The position numbers and the translations under genes were made by a program. DNA of 64,000 nucleotides from Lentisphaerota bacterium. GTDB lineage: Bacteria; Verrucomicrobiota; Kiritimatiellia; CAIQIC01; Lenti-01. The stretch is from NCBI GenBank assembly GCA_012514035.1, contig JAAZBB010000063.1, positions 1 through 64,000 on the forward strand, written 5' to 3'. Below, piece by piece: positions 11,054-18,356 of this stretch; within the stretch, counting starts at the first letter, position 1; each line of letters starts with the position of its first letter. Under the pieces are notes generated by a model. The model worked only from the letters and a program-made list of their open reading frames with translations, ran no database searches and was not told the origin of the DNA.

Positions 11054-12106
11054 TCAATCATCGTCCATGTGCCCGTTGCCGGCCCGGCGGAAATGGGGAT
11101 CGTTTTCGTCAAAGCGGAAGCAGACTTCCTGTTCGCGGTCCAGCACCAGGCGGGCGTTGAAGCCCTCGTGGGCGTCAGGAACGAAGGCAGCGGCCGTCAC
11201 GTCGGGGATGAGGTGGGCTTCGCCATTGATGCGGAACTTATAATCATGGCTGCCCGGTCCCAGGCGCTGGCGGATTTCCCATCGGCCCAGGCCAACCGGG
11301 TTCAAGGGCAAGCCGCCCTCCCAATCGTTCAAAAAGCTGCCGACCACTTCAACCCGTTCAATGCGGGCCGGCAGCGGAATGCGCGGCAGGACGCACTGGA
11401 TTTCCGGCGATGTCTCCTCTTCCGGAATAAGGGCGGCGGATAGATACACCCGTTGATAGGCGGGGGCCCCGACCCGGATTTCGTAGGCGCCGACCGGCAA
11501 TTCGATGGCGAATTGTCCGGCCTCATCGGTCTGGGTGCGCCAAATGCTGCGGCCTTCGACCGCGCCGGGGGCGGGGGTCCGCGCACGGATACGCACGCTG
11601 GCTTGGACAGGCTGGTGACCGTCCCACAGCGCAACGGTTCCGCGCAACACCCGCCGCAGGGCGGCCCGTTCCGCGGCCAGCCGGGCCGCCAAATCCGGGA
11701 AATGATCCTGGACCACGTCCAGCCACGCCGCGGAAGCGGATTCATCGGAACCGGTCTCCTCGGCCAGACGCAGGAGGGTGCGGGCGGCCGCCTCGCGCAG
11801 CTCGGGGGCGGCGTCGCCGATGTTCAACAAGTCCAGATGGCGGGCGGCGGAATCGGCGAGGCGCCCCACCCGCTCCAGGCACAGCCCGGACCGCCAGCGG
11901 GCCTGGGCTGCCAGTTCGGCGTTGGCGGAAGTATCGGCCAGCACCTGTTCATAGAGAGCGAGGGCAGCGGCGGGATCGCTGGCGCCGCGTTCAAGATACA
12001 AGGCCTGTTGAAAAATATCTTCGGCGGGTTCGTTGGAACCGCACCATCCGGCGGCGGTCAGCAGGGCCAGGGCAGAGGCGAAGAAAAGCAGACGGCAGGT
12101 TTTCAT
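11054..12106 (-). CDS. Exported TPR-like protein with carboxypeptidase-regulatory-like and C-terminal AMPK/CBM48-like domain
   Basis: Start MKTCRLLFFASALALL (ATGA overlap with response regulator stop); TPR-like DIFQQALYLERG...; C-terminal VEVVGSFLNDWEG..MNP-like..GSHDYKFRINGE resembles glycogen-binding CBM48. The upstream part of the ORF-track entry is out of gene. Confidence 0.72.
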   Translation of the reverse strand: MKTCRLLFFASALALLTAAGWCGSNEPAEDIFQQALYLERGASDPAAALALYEQVLADTSANAELAAQARWRSGLCLERVGRLADSAARHLDLLNIGDAAPELREAAARTLLRLAEETGSDESASAAWLDVVQDHFPDLAARLAAERAALRRVLRGTVALWDGHQPVQASVRIRARTPAPGAVEGRSIWRTQTDEAGQFAIELPVGAYEIRVGAPAYQRVYLSAALIPEEETSPEIQCVLPRIPLPARIERVEVVGSFLNDWEGGLPLNPVGLGRWEIRQRLGPGSHDYKFRINGEAHLIPDVTAAAFVPDAHEGFNARLVLDREQEVCFRFDENDPHFRRAGNGHMDDD

Positions 12107-12789
12107 CGGGCGAACTCGTAGCCGTGGGTGCGCACGGTCAGGATGTGTTGGGGGTTGCGGGGGTCGCGCTCGATCCGCTGGCGCAAGGTGGTCACGAAGC
12201 GATCCACGGTGCGTTCGGTGCCCTCGTAATCGGGGCCCCAGACGCGGTCGAGCAGTTGCGCCCGGGTGAAGGCCTGGCCCGGATGCAGCGCCAGGAATTC
12301 CAGCAGGGCGTACTCGCGGGGGGTCAGGTCCACGCGCCGGCTGTCCGCGCACAGGGTGCGCGCAGCGACATCCAGCACGAAGGACCCGAAGACGATCCGC
12401 GGCGGCGAGTCTTTCAGGGTGACGCGCAGCAGCAGGGCCTTGATCCGCGCCACCAGCGCTTCCATCTTGAAGGGCTTGCGCACGAAATCATCCGCGCCAA
12501 GCTGGAAGCTCAGCAGTTCATCTTCGTCGGCGGTCTTGGCCGTCAGCACGATGATGGGAACGCCGGAGTTGCGCCGGCGCAGCTCCTGGCAGACCTCGAA
12601 ACCGCTCCGGCCGGGGAGCATGATGTCGAGCAGAACGAGATCGGGCTGTTCGGCCAGAGCGAGCTGCACGGCGCTTTGGCCATCGCCGGCGGACACAACG
12701 GCGAATCCATGGTCCGGCAAAGTGATTTCCAGCGCGGTGCGCAGCGGCAGATGATCTTCCACCACAAGGATTTTCTTGCGCGGGCTCAC
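12103..12789 (-). CDS. OmpR/PhoB-family response regulator
   Basis: Receiver domain VVEDHLPLRTALE...DLVLLDIMLPGRSGFEV...LTAK; winged-helix LTPREYALLEFLALHPGQAFTRAQLLDRVWG. Confidence 0.95.
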   Translation of the reverse strand: MSPRKKILVVEDHLPLRTALEITLPDHGFAVVSAGDGQSAVQLALAEQPDLVLLDIMLPGRSGFEVCQELRRRNSGVPIIVLTAKTADEDELLSFQLGADDFVRKPFKMEALVARIKALLLRVTLKDSPPRIVFGSFVLDVAARTLCADSRRVDLTPREYALLEFLALHPGQAFTRAQLLDRVWGPDYEGTERTVDRFVTTLRQRIERDPRNPQHILTVRTHGYEFAR

Positions 12790-14840
12790 GCCGGGTCTCC
12801 GGATGGCACGCCCAGCGGCAGGCGGATGGCGAAGGTGGAACCGTTCGGCGGCTGGGAGCGTACGGTAATGGTGCCGCCATGCGCAGTGACCAGGCCTTTG
12901 ACGATGGCCAGTCCCAGGCCCAGCCCCGGAACGCGCGCGGCCAGGCGGGAATCTGCCCGGAAATAGGGTATAAAGAGACGCCGCCGCATGCGCGGACTCA
13001 TGCCCGGACCGTTGTCGGCCACTTCCAGCAGGGCCTCGGAATCCTCCCGGCGAAGAGACAGCCGCACCCGGGCGGGCGCGGCACAGTATTTCACGGCGTT
13101 TTCCAGCAGGTTGCGCAGGATTTCCGCGAGGGCTTCACGATCGAATTCACCGGCGTAGTCGGCTCTCTGAATCGCGAAGTCCAGCCGCTCGGGCGCCAAG
13201 CCGGTTTTTTCCGGGAGGCCCGGGAGGATCGCGGCCAGGAGTTCATCGAGGCGGCCCGCTTCCCGGACCAGGGGCACAGGCCCGGTGCGGTGGCGGGCGT
13301 AATTCAAAAACCGGTCGTTCAGCCTCATCAGGCTGTTGATCTCGTCCTGAACCAGTTGGCGAACCCGGCGATCGACGGGAGAACCGCTGGGGGCATCGTC
13401 CGGCTGCAGCTTGTCGGCCAGGACGGCCAGCGCGGCGATGGGGGTCTTGAGTTCGTGGCTGATGCGATCCATCACATCGGCCTGCAGTCCGGCCAGGCGC
13501 AGCGAACGCCGCAGATAAAGGAACGGCGCGACCAGGCCCAGGAGGGCCAGGATGATGGCCAGGCCCAGCAAGACGGCGCGGGTTTTCGTGTGGGTGGCCG
13601 CGAGCGCGGCCCACATCGAAACCGGTTCGGCGCGGTATTCAATGGCCCAGGCCCCCAGCGGTGCCGGCAGCCCGAGGACCAGTTGTCCGGATTCCGCGGC
13701 GGACCGACTGCCCGCCGGCGCCGGGGCCGGAATCAGTGCAGCCCGGCCGCCGTGGCGCACGGTGAATTCCTGCAGGACGGGCTCCAAAGCGGCAGTCTGC
13801 CAAACGTCCCAATCAAGTACCACTGCCAAGCGAGAACCATCATGCCGGGCATCGGGTGAATCTACCAGCAGGAGGCACTCCGCGGCATTCCCGGGCAGGC
13901 TTTCGGGAAACAGGAAACCGGAACGAAACGGGCCACCCCCGCAAACGCGAACAAACGCCTCCCCCGCGGCGCGGGCTGCCGTCGCTTGTTCGGTTTGGGC
14001 CAGCATCTCCGCCAGTTCGGAGGGCAGATCCGGCCAGGCCCGCCGCAAGCGCTGGCTGACGATCTGCAGTTCCCGCACCTCCAGATCCAGACCGCGGCGC
14101 AAACCATCGGCGAGCATTCCATCGGCCCAGTCGCGGGCCAAGGCGTCTTCGCCGGACTCCAAGGCCATTTCCACGGCGCGCAACCACGCCAGCGGCGGCG
14201 GAACCAGCTTTGGGGTCAACGCCAGCATGTTCCGGCAGGCATCGAGCGCCGCCGGCAGGTCGCCCTGGGCGCGGGCGCAGGCGGCCATTTCCGCCCAGAC
14301 CGCGATCCGGATGGACGCCGGCAGGCGCGGTTCGGTCAGCACCTGCCGGTAGTGTTCGCGCGCCCGGGAAAAGTCCCGATCGGCCCAGTGCGACCGGCGC
14401 GCGGCCTGGAGTGCGGCATGGGCGGGATGGACGGCCGACAACCCGGGCAGATCCCCGATCCGGGTTTGCCGGGCCGGCCATGCCACGCGCCCGTCGGCAT
14501 CCAGCGCCAGCACCGCGCGGACGGCCGGTTCCGCCGCCATCCATTGTCGGACATCGATCCAAAACCGCATTTCGGATGGCGCCGACGAATTCAGCGCGTC
14601 TCCGGCACCCGCCAGCAGGTCCCGGAGGCGGCCGTGAAGCTGCACGCCGATGTCCTGCAATTCGTGCAGGCAGGCTTCGCGCTGCTGGGCCTGCGCGGAT
14701 TCGTGCAGAATTTGAACGCTTTGCCAGGCCAGAAAAACCAGCAGCAGGCAGGGAACCGCCACGAAAATCCCGAGGACCGCCAACAGGCGCCGAACCTCGC
14801 GCTGCGAATACAGGCTTGAGCCCATCATGTTTCCAAGCAT
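12786..14840 (-). CDS. Membrane sensor histidine kinase with large extracytoplasmic region
   Basis: HisKA MDRISHELKTPIAAL, N-box LLENAVKY, VADNGPGM, GLGLGLAIVKGLV; overlaps response regulator by ATGA. Confidence 0.94.
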   Translation of the reverse strand: MLGNMMGSSLYSQREVRRLLAVLGIFVAVPCLLLVFLAWQSVQILHESAQAQQREACLHELQDIGVQLHGRLRDLLAGAGDALNSSAPSEMRFWIDVRQWMAAEPAVRAVLALDADGRVAWPARQTRIGDLPGLSAVHPAHAALQAARRSHWADRDFSRAREHYRQVLTEPRLPASIRIAVWAEMAACARAQGDLPAALDACRNMLALTPKLVPPPLAWLRAVEMALESGEDALARDWADGMLADGLRRGLDLEVRELQIVSQRLRRAWPDLPSELAEMLAQTEQATAARAAGEAFVRVCGGGPFRSGFLFPESLPGNAAECLLLVDSPDARHDGSRLAVVLDWDVWQTAALEPVLQEFTVRHGGRAALIPAPAPAGSRSAAESGQLVLGLPAPLGAWAIEYRAEPVSMWAALAATHTKTRAVLLGLAIILALLGLVAPFLYLRRSLRLAGLQADVMDRISHELKTPIAALAVLADKLQPDDAPSGSPVDRRVRQLVQDEINSLMRLNDRFLNYARHRTGPVPLVREAGRLDELLAAILPGLPEKTGLAPERLDFAIQRADYAGEFDREALAEILRNLLENAVKYCAAPARVRLSLRREDSEALLEVADNGPGMSPRMRRRLFIPYFRADSRLAARVPGLGLGLAIVKGLVTAHGGTITVRSQPPNGSTFAIRLPLGVPSGDPA

Positions 14841-14850
14841 TCCACGGTGA

Positions 14851-14912
14851 TGTTACCCGATTGTTACCGAAAAAGCGGGGAAAATTCTGCAACCGGTAAC
14901 AATCCGGTAGCA
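14851..14912. promoter_or_regulatory. Pair of facing OmpR/PhoB-type direct-repeat boxes in divergent promoter
   Basis: TGTTACC-CGAT-TGTTACC (14851-14868, +) and, on minus strand, TGCTACC-GGAT-TGTTACC (14912-14895); 16/18 identity. Confidence 0.72.
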
Positions 14913-14954
14913 TGAGACGGGCAGGATGGACGCGGAAACCGTAAGGAGAGCGTT

Positions 14955-17900
14955 ATGAAAATTCATCCGCCAACATGGCTTTGTCGATTCGCTTTGGTGC
15001 TGGCCGCGGCATGCCCGGCCGGGACAACCGCGGCCGCGCTGGTGCGCGGGCCCTATGTTCAGATGGGGCATTACACCAACCAGGCCACGATCGTCTGGCG
15101 CACGGATTCCTCATCCGACAGCGCGGTGGACTATGGACTGACCACCAGCTACGGGCAGACCGCCACCGGCCCCAGCGGCTGGCAGCATGAGGTGACCCTG
15201 ACGGGCCTGATTCCGGGCACCACCTATTATTACCGCGTCCGCAGCGGCGGGGCCACGCTGGCCAGCGCCAGCTTCCGCAGCGGCAAATCCCCCGGCACGC
15301 CGTTCCGCATCGGCCTCTTCAGCGATGCCCATTACGGCGCCAATCCTGCTATCGGCACGCTGCTGGCGCAAGCCGCGCCCGACCTGCTGCTGGCCGTCGG
15401 CGACGTCAGCGATGACGGCCTGTATGCGGACCTGGATACCAATATCTTCGGTCCCCTGGGCCAGGTCCTGTCGGCCGCGCCGTTGTACTGGACGCCTGGC
15501 AACCACGACGTGCGCGATGATTTCGCCGTCTGCCGGGAGGCATTCGTTCTGCCGGGCAACGAATTGAGCTACTGGTTCGAATATGCCGATGCCCAGATCG
15601 TCTCGCTCAACGCCGAAGGCCTGCCTGGCACCGGCTGGCTGGCCAACGCGCTCGCCGCCTCCTCCAAGCCTTGGAAGATCGTGTTCTTCCATGAACCCGC
15701 CTACTCGCCCGATGGCGGCCACGGCGAAGAGGAAACCATCCGGGACCAGTACGTGCCGATTTTGGAACAGCATGGCGTAGACCTCGTTGTCTCCGGACAC
15801 AACCATTTCTATTGGCGCAGCGCGCCCATCGACGGAGTTCAATATCTGATCACTGGCCCGACCGGAAGCCGCACCCGCGAGGCCGGCAACACGCCCTGCT
15901 ATTCCCAATGGGTGGTCAACGGCTCCGAAGCCCAGACCTTCATCCTGCTCGACATCGCCGGCACCCGCCTGCGCGTGCAAACCTTCGATGCCGCCGGCAA
16001 CCTGCGCGATGAAACCGCGTTGGACCGAACCTGTCCCTTCGCGCTGGACGGCGAACTGGATCCCGGCGCGGTACAGGTGGCCGCGCGCCCCGGAGGCCAG
16101 ACCATCTGGGCCGTGCAGTCGAACAATTTCCTCTATGTGGCCACGCCGGACGCCGGCGAAGGCAGCGACGCCTTCCTGTTCCTGGCCTCGGCCCCCGATG
16201 CCCTCGCGAATCCCGCGCCCTGGGGGAAGGCCGGCAACACCCTCGCCTACGACGCGTTCCTGGCGGATGAAAACGACAACAATTACAGCCATGGTTTTGC
16301 GGAAGACGGACTGGCGGCCGACGTGACCATGATCCGCACCGCCACGCCCTGGTGCAACAACGGCGTGCTGGAAGCCGTGATCGACCTGAGCGCCTACTAC
16401 GGCGGCGCGGTGCCCGATTCCGTGTTCCTGGCCGCCGCCCTGTATGGCAACGCCGATGCCGGCGCGCTGGCCGCCGCCTCGCAATGCCCGGCCGGCAACG
16501 GCGACGGCAACCTCGACCCCGACGAAGTCGTGGAAATCCCGCTGAGCCCCGTTACCGGTCCCGTTGGCCCGGCCCCCTCTGCCTCCTTCTCGCCGCCGAC
16601 GCCGGTGGACTGCGGATCCATCACCGTCACCTTCAACGCCGCGACCTCGGTGCTGGCCAACGCCGCCACCGTCAGCGCGTTTTACCACTTCTCCACCAAC
16701 AGCGACGACTGGGTCCTGGCGGACATGTCCCGCACCGGCTCCAACACCTTTGTCCTGGTGTTCGATAGCGTGCCCGACAATGCCCCGCAACTGGAAGTTT
16801 GCTTCACCGACGGCATTCACTGGGAGAACCGCGGCGGTGCCAACTGGAAGGTCGTCATCCGCGATTGCGAGGCCCCGTTGACGGTCAGCCGCGTCACCAT
16901 CACACCCGGCGTGCCGACAGTCGGTCAGCCCGTGGCGGTTTCCTACGATCCGGCAGGTGGCGGGCTCGCTGCCGCCTCCATCGTAAACATTCACCATGGC
17001 TACAATCGCACGGAAGGCTGGACCGCCGTTCCCGGTGTGCCCATGACGAAATCCGGTGCGGCCTGGACTTGTTCCTACGTCGTGCCGGAGGGGGCGCTCA
17101 GCATCACGATGTGCTTCAACGACGGCACCACCTGGGACAACAACGGCGGCGCCGACTGGGACTTTCCCGTCATGGCGGCCGCCCGGCCGCCCGTGCCCGC
17201 GGACGTGGTGATCACCAATCCCCCGGCTTCGGTCTTCCAGGTGGATCACGACATCACCCAATTCGTCCTGGAAGGCACCGCGGGATACAACCTGGCCGGA
17301 ACGCTGTACTGGACGAACTCCGCCACCGGCCAGGGCGGATCCTTCCCCCGCACGCCGTTCTGGAGCCAATCCGTCGAACTGGCCGTGGGCGCCAATGATC
17401 TGCAAATCACCGGCATCATTCCGGGCGCGCCCGGCGGAGCGGTGACAATTGCCTGGGACCGCGCCTCGGCCTATACGGAGTGGGCCAATGACAGCGCACA
17501 GGGCAGCGGCTGGAGCGCCGGCTGGACCCTGTTCGCCGAGGGCGAAACCGCCGGCCACTTCCTCGACACGGTCTCCACCAACTGTTCCGCCGGCAGTCCG
17601 GCCTTCGGCCTGTGGGCGAACAACGGCGCCACCGCCCGGGCGCGCCGGCCGCTGGCGGAAGCCCTGCAGCCGGGGGATACACTTTCCTTCGTGTTGGACA
17701 ATAATTGGATCAACGATGGCGGATCCTCCGGCTTCTCCCTGGAAAACACCCATGGCGAAGCGCTGCTCACCTTGTATTTCATCGGCGGGGAAACCGTCTA
17801 TAAGCTGCAGGATGGCAGCCCAGAAATCCGCGAAACCGGAATGTCTTGGACCGGCGACGGGGTGACCGTGGCGTTCACGCTGGATTCGGCCACGAATTAT

Positions 17901-18356
17901 ACCCTGGTCGTTAATGGAAATTCCTTCACCGGCACGCTGATCCCGGCGGCCGGCGGAACCGGCGTCCAGCAGTTCCAGACCTGGAACTACAACTGCGGAC
18001 CAGACACGGAGCGCAATGTCTACTTTAATAACCTACAAGTGACCCGGTCACAGAGCGGGGAAGAGGATGTGCATCGCGTTGCGACGGTGAGCATTATCCG
18101 GCTGTCGGGCGACATTCCGGAACCGTTCATCGCCGGCATGAACGCACCGGAAGGCGGCGGCCTGCGGATCAGCATGGCCAACAGCGTTCCGGACGTCCCA
18201 TATGCCATCTACGTCAGCGAGACACTGATCCCGACCCAGAACTGGCAGTTGGTGACCGGCACACTGCAGGCCGGGAACGGAGGCACCCTCGAGCTGGTCA
18301 TGACCAACGACCTGCCTGTGTGCGGCTTCTACCGGATTGGCGGCGGGCAGCCCTGA
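14955..18356 (+). CDS. Secreted purple-acid-phosphatase-like metallophosphoesterase with two CBM25/53-like modules and a C-terminal beta domain
   Basis: PAP N-terminal FnIII-like domain; GLFSDAHYG..GDVSDDG..GNHDVRDD..VSGHNHFY; two modules ...CFTDGIHWENRGGANW and ...CFNDGTTWDNNGGADW; RBS AAGGAG. Confidence 0.88.
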   Translation: MKIHPPTWLCRFALVLAAACPAGTTAAALVRGPYVQMGHYTNQATIVWRTDSSSDSAVDYGLTTSYGQTATGPSGWQHEVTLTGLIPGTTYYYRVRSGGATLASASFRSGKSPGTPFRIGLFSDAHYGANPAIGTLLAQAAPDLLLAVGDVSDDGLYADLDTNIFGPLGQVLSAAPLYWTPGNHDVRDDFAVCREAFVLPGNELSYWFEYADAQIVSLNAEGLPGTGWLANALAASSKPWKIVFFHEPAYSPDGGHGEEETIRDQYVPILEQHGVDLVVSGHNHFYWRSAPIDGVQYLITGPTGSRTREAGNTPCYSQWVVNGSEAQTFILLDIAGTRLRVQTFDAAGNLRDETALDRTCPFALDGELDPGAVQVAARPGGQTIWAVQSNNFLYVATPDAGEGSDAFLFLASAPDALANPAPWGKAGNTLAYDAFLADENDNNYSHGFAEDGLAADVTMIRTATPWCNNGVLEAVIDLSAYYGGAVPDSVFLAAALYGNADAGALAAASQCPAGNGDGNLDPDEVVEIPLSPVTGPVGPAPSASFSPPTPVDCGSITVTFNAATSVLANAATVSAFYHFSTNSDDWVLADMSRTGSNTFVLVFDSVPDNAPQLEVCFTDGIHWENRGGANWKVVIRDCEAPLTVSRVTITPGVPTVGQPVAVSYDPAGGGLAAASIVNIHHGYNRTEGWTAVPGVPMTKSGAAWTCSYVVPEGALSITMCFNDGTTWDNNGGADWDFPVMAAARPPVPADVVITNPPASVFQVDHDITQFVLEGTAGYNLAGTLYWTNSATGQGGSFPRTPFWSQSVELAVGANDLQITGIIPGAPGGAVTIAWDRASAYTEWANDSAQGSGWSAGWTLFAEGETAGHFLDTVSTNCSAGSPAFGLWANNGATARARRPLAEALQPGDTLSFVLDNNWINDGGSSGFSLENTHGEALLTLYFIGGETVYKLQDGSPEIRETGMSWTGDGVTVAFTLDSATNYTLVVNGNSFTGTLIPAAGGTGVQQFQTWNYNCGPDTERNVYFNNLQVTRSQSGEEDVHRVATVSIIRLSGDIPEPFIAGMNAPEGGGLRISMANSVPDVPYAIYVSETLIPTQNWQLVTGTLQAGNGGTLELVMTNDLPVCGFYRIGGGQP

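Follow-up and report, generated by a model that had tools for sequence, protein, structure and literature searches.

Paired OmpR-type boxes between a two-component operon and a metallophosphoesterase gene: a predicted operator and its probable regulator

Results

The 64,000-nucleotide stretch of Lentisphaerota bacterium DNA analysed here (the window) contains a minus-strand operon, in the order kinase, regulator and third gene, which diverges from a plus-strand metallophosphoesterase gene. The features of the locus are as follows.

11054-12106, minus strand: third operon gene; signal-peptide-like start, CarboxypepD_reg and AMPK1_CBM matches
12103-12789, minus strand: OmpR-family response regulator; Response_reg and Trans_reg_C domains, recognition helix RTVDRFVTTLRQ
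12786-14825 (listed as 12786-14840), minus strand: sensor histidine kinase; HisKA and HATPase_c domains, long N-terminal region with a weak TPR match
14836-14841, minus strand: AATGCT, predicted to be the -10 of the kinase-regulator operon; follows the kinase-side box after 9 bp
14851-14868, minus strand in gene direction: kinase-side box, TGTTACCCGATTGTTACC on the plus strand (TGTTACC-CGAT-TGTTACC), GGTAACA-ATCG-GGTAACA towards its gene
14869-14894, no strand: inter-box spacer of 26 bp; sequence poorly conserved, length the same in all congeners but 10 bp less in G026, a species described below
14895-14912, plus strand in gene direction: phosphoesterase-side box, TGCTACCGGATTGTTACC on the minus strand (TGCTACC-GGAT-TGTTACC), GGTAACA-ATCC-GGTAGCA towards its gene
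14922-14927, plus strand: CAGGAT, predicted to be the -10 of the phosphoesterase gene; follows the phosphoesterase-side box after 9 bp
14955-18356, plus strand: secreted-looking metallophosphoesterase, the proposed target; Metallophos, Pur_ac_phosph_N and CBM53 matches

The regulator matches both PF00072 (receiver) and PF00486 (winged-helix Trans_reg_C) well above the cut-off and thus has the domain layout of the OmpR/PhoB family. This confirms the sequence-only reading, an earlier annotation of the stretch, which had placed an OmpR-family regulator in the adjoining operon; the histidine kinase lies upstream of it in the same operon. The 'secreted phosphatase' of that reading is indeed a secreted-looking metallophosphoesterase, but 'phosphatase' is a fold-family assignment only: the domain matches predict a calcineurin-like metallophosphoesterase with a purple-acid-phosphatase N-terminal domain. 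The carbohydrate-binding matches in the third operon gene and in the phosphoesterase may offer a hint, and only a hint, of the signal and of the phosphoesterase's substrate.

Both boxes have the form heptamer-N4-heptamer with an 11-bp period and lie in the divergent promoter; they are identical at 16 of 18 positions, with 26 bp between them and their centres 44 bp apart. The earlier description of TGTTACC-N4-TGTTACC on the plus strand, with a 16/18-identical copy on the minus strand and this distance between centres, is therefore correct. From base composition, a genome of 2.78 Mb is expected to contain 0.007 exact copies of the box and 0.36 copies at up to one mismatch. A scan of the host genome, proposed by the earlier reading as a check, returned these two adjoining boxes as the sole matches at up to two mismatches. 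The paired boxes are real and far beyond chance. (A scan of the window alone at up to three mismatches is uninformative, with 2 boxes found against 1.2 expected.)

Orthologous loci with the same divergent arrangement and both boxes are present in three further genomes, G012, G010 and G026, whose kinases are 68%, 56% and 40% identical to that of the window. The first two are congeners of the window's host, and G026 belongs to another family of the same order. Across the 28 genomes of the order, close orthologues of the kinase and regulator, the metallophosphoesterase and the paired boxes occur in exactly the same four. The phosphoesterase orthologues are 62-80% identical and are found only in genomes that have the regulator and the boxes; the CBM53 match of this species' phosphoesterase has no counterpart in that of G026. 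The earlier reading had named loss of the boxes where the gene pair is kept as grounds for its refutation, and we found the boxes in all four species with the pair. Among the three congeners, 17 of the 18 columns are invariant in each box, against 10 of 26 in the spacer. The box centres of G026 are 34 bp apart rather than 44 bp, about one helical turn less. When 346 genomes of the class were searched for the operator at up to one mismatch, all seven matches fell in this divergent promoter, in four species.

A search of the four genomes for further targets (box plus -10 element, up to three mismatches) gave, outside this locus, nothing above the reversed-pattern control and no match that recurred between species, so we do not claim a wider regulon. 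Side matches at G010:C175 and G012:C415 fall within open reading frames whose coding status is doubtful.

We then sorted 50 regulator loci of the class, that of the window included, by recognition helix, counting motifs only over loci with enough upstream sequence. In group A (helix R[TSN][VI]DR[FC]), which includes the window locus, TGTTAC-N5-TGTTAC is present in 6 of 8 loci; group B (RTLDQH) has TTTTAC-N5-TTTTAC in 8 of 10, and group C (RTVDNF) has TGTCAC-N5-TGTCAC in all five. Read in gene direction, the box is GGTAACA-N4-GGTAACA in group A and CGTGACA-N4-CGTGACA in group C. At period 11 each group's motif is absent from the other groups, with the exception of one group D locus; other periods from 8 to 14 gave no matches in group A and scattered single matches overall. 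The loci counted had also served to define the motifs and groups; what counts as evidence is accordingly that the motifs are specific to a group and to a period of 11, and not the bare numbers. Since the operons of related regulators carry boxes of 11-bp period that differ where the recognition helix differs, the boxes appear to be tied to the neighbouring regulator itself. The residue that follows the conserved aspartate of the helix is R, N or Q depending on the group, and an ungapped match would align it with Ser216 in the residue list of PMC4832192. Other positions of the recognition helix also differ between groups.

The groups differ in their surroundings as well. Group B loci (L156, L157, L159, L160, L161, L233, L236, L237 and L239) carry up to four tandem TTTTACA-type heptamers with an 11-bp period, roughly 100 bp ahead of the first gene in the measured cases; in these sibling operons another first gene is followed by the kinase and then the regulator, and their promoters have no fixed -10 hexamer at 9 bp. 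Group C operons (L231, L238, L240, L241 and L227) begin with a B12-binding radical SAM/DUF4070 protein (Pfam assignment for L240) and have a single box of TGTCACG type some 50 bp ahead of the start codon. Group D (RS[LI]D[ST]FV; 25 loci, L202-L220, L222-L226 and L229), the most abundant of the related regulators, showed no common 11-bp repeat upstream beyond the GC-rich background.

Alignment of 16 promoters of groups A and C showed that in every one of them the box is followed, after exactly 9 bp, by a -10-like hexamer, xAxxxT. At other offsets it occurs in at most 3 of 16, and in shuffled sequences in at most 7; with near relatives removed, 11 of 11 promoters retain it at 9 bp. A2 and T6 are the strongest positions of the -10 element, and apart from these two the hexamers are weak. 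The rule also held out of sample, in three of three further promoters of another genome of the class, G074, which were found by a later search and had not been used to derive it; they lie within a few kilobases upstream of the G074 regulator operon. A standard scan detected no consensus sigma-70 promoter, and the boxes cover nothing that evidently resembles a -35 hexamer.

Because the -10-like element begins exactly 9 bp downstream, each box stands at the -35 place, and the arrangement appears to be that of a PhoB-like class II promoter, with the box replacing the -35 element at a fixed distance from the -10. As each box lies 9 bp upstream of the -10-like element of its own gene, there is one box per gene, pointing outward. 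The earlier view of 'facing' boxes thus holds as regards an OmpR-type operator, but functionally the boxes face outward, and a pair of independent activator sites describes them better than one face-to-face operator. Transcripts are predicted to start near 14829 (minus strand) and 14934 (plus strand). Since the former lies downstream of the ATG at 14840, translation of the kinase probably begins at 14825 (MGSSLYS) and not at that listed upstream codon; the G010 kinase orthologue starts at the position matching 14825. The kinase transcript would be nearly leaderless, with an implied 5' leader of only about 4 nt.

Discussion

The boxes, their conservation, their co-occurrence with the genes, the fixed -10 geometry and the correlation between helix and box can be read directly from the DNA. 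The conservation, the co-occurrence and the match of helix to box give good comparative support to the OmpR-type operator, autoregulation and shared target predicted by the sequence-only reading. We think it quite probable that the operon's own regulator binds each box and activates both its operon and the phosphoesterase gene in a PhoB-like manner. The intergenic region would then contain a pair of divergent promoters built alike when read towards their genes: in each, a box of its own (GGTAACA-N4-GGTAACA) would be followed, after 9 bp, by a weak -10 hexamer. A head-to-tail dimer of the regulator (12103-12789) would bind each box and, when phosphorylated, recruit RNA polymerase by class II activation as PhoB does, turning on its own operon (positive autoregulation) together with the phosphoesterase. 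Recruitment of polymerase seems the most likely role, because the box occupies the -35 place without any evident -35-like hexamer. That the regulator binds, that it activates and does not repress, and that it depends on phosphorylation are predictions. Several points count against this model: the lack of a sigma-70 consensus, the weak -10, the leader of about 4 nt, the absence of the 9-bp layout from group B, and the loci in which the motif is missing (2 of 8 in group A and 2 of 10 in group B).

Alternatively, the regulator could repress both promoters by covering the -35 region until a signal arrives (negative autoregulation). The boxes do overlap the expected -35 contact region of polymerase, and many OmpR-family regulators both activate and repress. 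A repressed strong promoter, however, would not need boxes without a -35-like hexamer beneath them or a weak -10, and the fixed 9-bp spacing is what an activator in contact with polymerase would require. Neither argument is decisive, and we consider repression unlikely.

We give much less weight to binding by another regulator of the cell, such as a PhoB-type or other OmpR-family protein. Further regulators of the OmpR family are encoded in the genome, including a PhoB-like one at G000:C66, yet the locus of the latter is without such boxes. Moreover, the boxes are confined to genomes and loci with the neighbouring regulator, and their type shifts with its recognition helix.

Together the boxes also make up an inverted repeat, nearly perfect over 18 bp and with a loop of 26 bases, such as a hairpin or attenuator in one transcript would have. 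This we regard as scarcely credible: the arms differ at one or two positions in each species with none of the differences compensated, related loci have a single unpaired box, the group B copies are tandem and not inverted, no terminator-like site is found, and the predicted starts lie outside the repeat. Equally negligible is chance resemblance, or conservation due only to recent common descent. Although a single genus accounts for three of the four species, flanks and spacer have diverged where the boxes have not, the fourth species, of another family, has a kinase only 40% identical, and all seven class-wide matches fall at this locus.

Direct-repeat operators of this format are well known in the OmpR family (PMC4832192, PMC6988585, PMC10704036), and the system is ordinary in kind; what is unusually good is its comparative support. 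Like E. coli PhoB and Streptomyces PhoP, it combines tandem heptamers of 11-bp period, predicted head-to-tail binding and a kinase-regulator pair, here of predicted autoregulation, adjoining a phosphoesterase-type target. The PHO box of Streptomyces PhoP is built of 11-nt direct-repeat units, GTTCACC (PMC6988585), and PhoB, which in a published model occupies the -35 region jointly with sigma (PMC3348028), likewise has its box over the -35 region of target promoters. Unlike in those systems, the heptamer here is GGTAACA, the kinase has a long N-terminal sensor region, and there is no sign of a pst/phoU context. The regulator is not PhoB proper, falling short of the PhoB equivalog model (207.1 against 296.2 bits), and the kinase is not PhoR (111.8 against 334.2 bits, over the kinase core only). 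A more PhoB-like regulator elsewhere in the genome scores 238.7 bits, still below the PhoB cut-off. MtrA, the closest solved structure (2gwr), resembles the regulator over its full length; identity with MtrA was rejected by the equivalog model (207.1 against 300 bits). Searches of genome contigs and of the PDB returned distant regulators only.

M. tuberculosis PhoP binds TCACAGC-N4-TCACAGC as a tandem dimer with a strict 4-bp spacer (PMC4832192); the 7-bp repeats and strict spacer are shared with the present boxes, and the heptamer and recognition helix are different. The site of actinomycete GlnR and AfsQ1, GTnAC-n6-GTnAC (PMC6988585, PMC10704036), is matched by the kinase-side box (GTAAC-AATCGG-GTAAC) and is one change away from the phosphoesterase-side box (GTAAC-AATCCG-GTAGC). 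This likeness is of site spacing and predicted head-to-tail OmpR-type binding, not of protein family: those regulators belong to another phylum-level lineage. AfsQ1 acts on its own expression, and GlnR is an atypical activator of nitrogen genes with four sites (PMC6988585, PMC10704036).

A search for literature on two-component systems of the Kiritimatiellota-like lineage found nothing relevant. The locus provides a precise, testable prediction of operator, start sites and target, and the three groups, each pairing a helix type with a box type, amount to a compact natural experiment in heptamer choice by OmpR-family recognition helices. We lean towards a helix code, followed across the class by a sub-lineage of OmpR-type regulators, in which R[ST]VDR, RTVDNF and RTLDQH predict GGTAACA, CGTGACA and TTTTACA, respectively, in gene direction, the first two groups with the layout of box, 9 bp and -10. 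This pairing within the class is what might be new. If the code is true, dedicated local regulons would be predictable from genome sequence alone in uncultured bacteria, and the 9-bp rule offers a route to more targets. At the G074 regulator locus (L262 2716-6389, that is G074:C5:421215-424888) each of several preceding genes has a box and a -10 element of its own; these genes, which include those for an RDD-family and for ChaN-like proteins, likely form a small local regulon.
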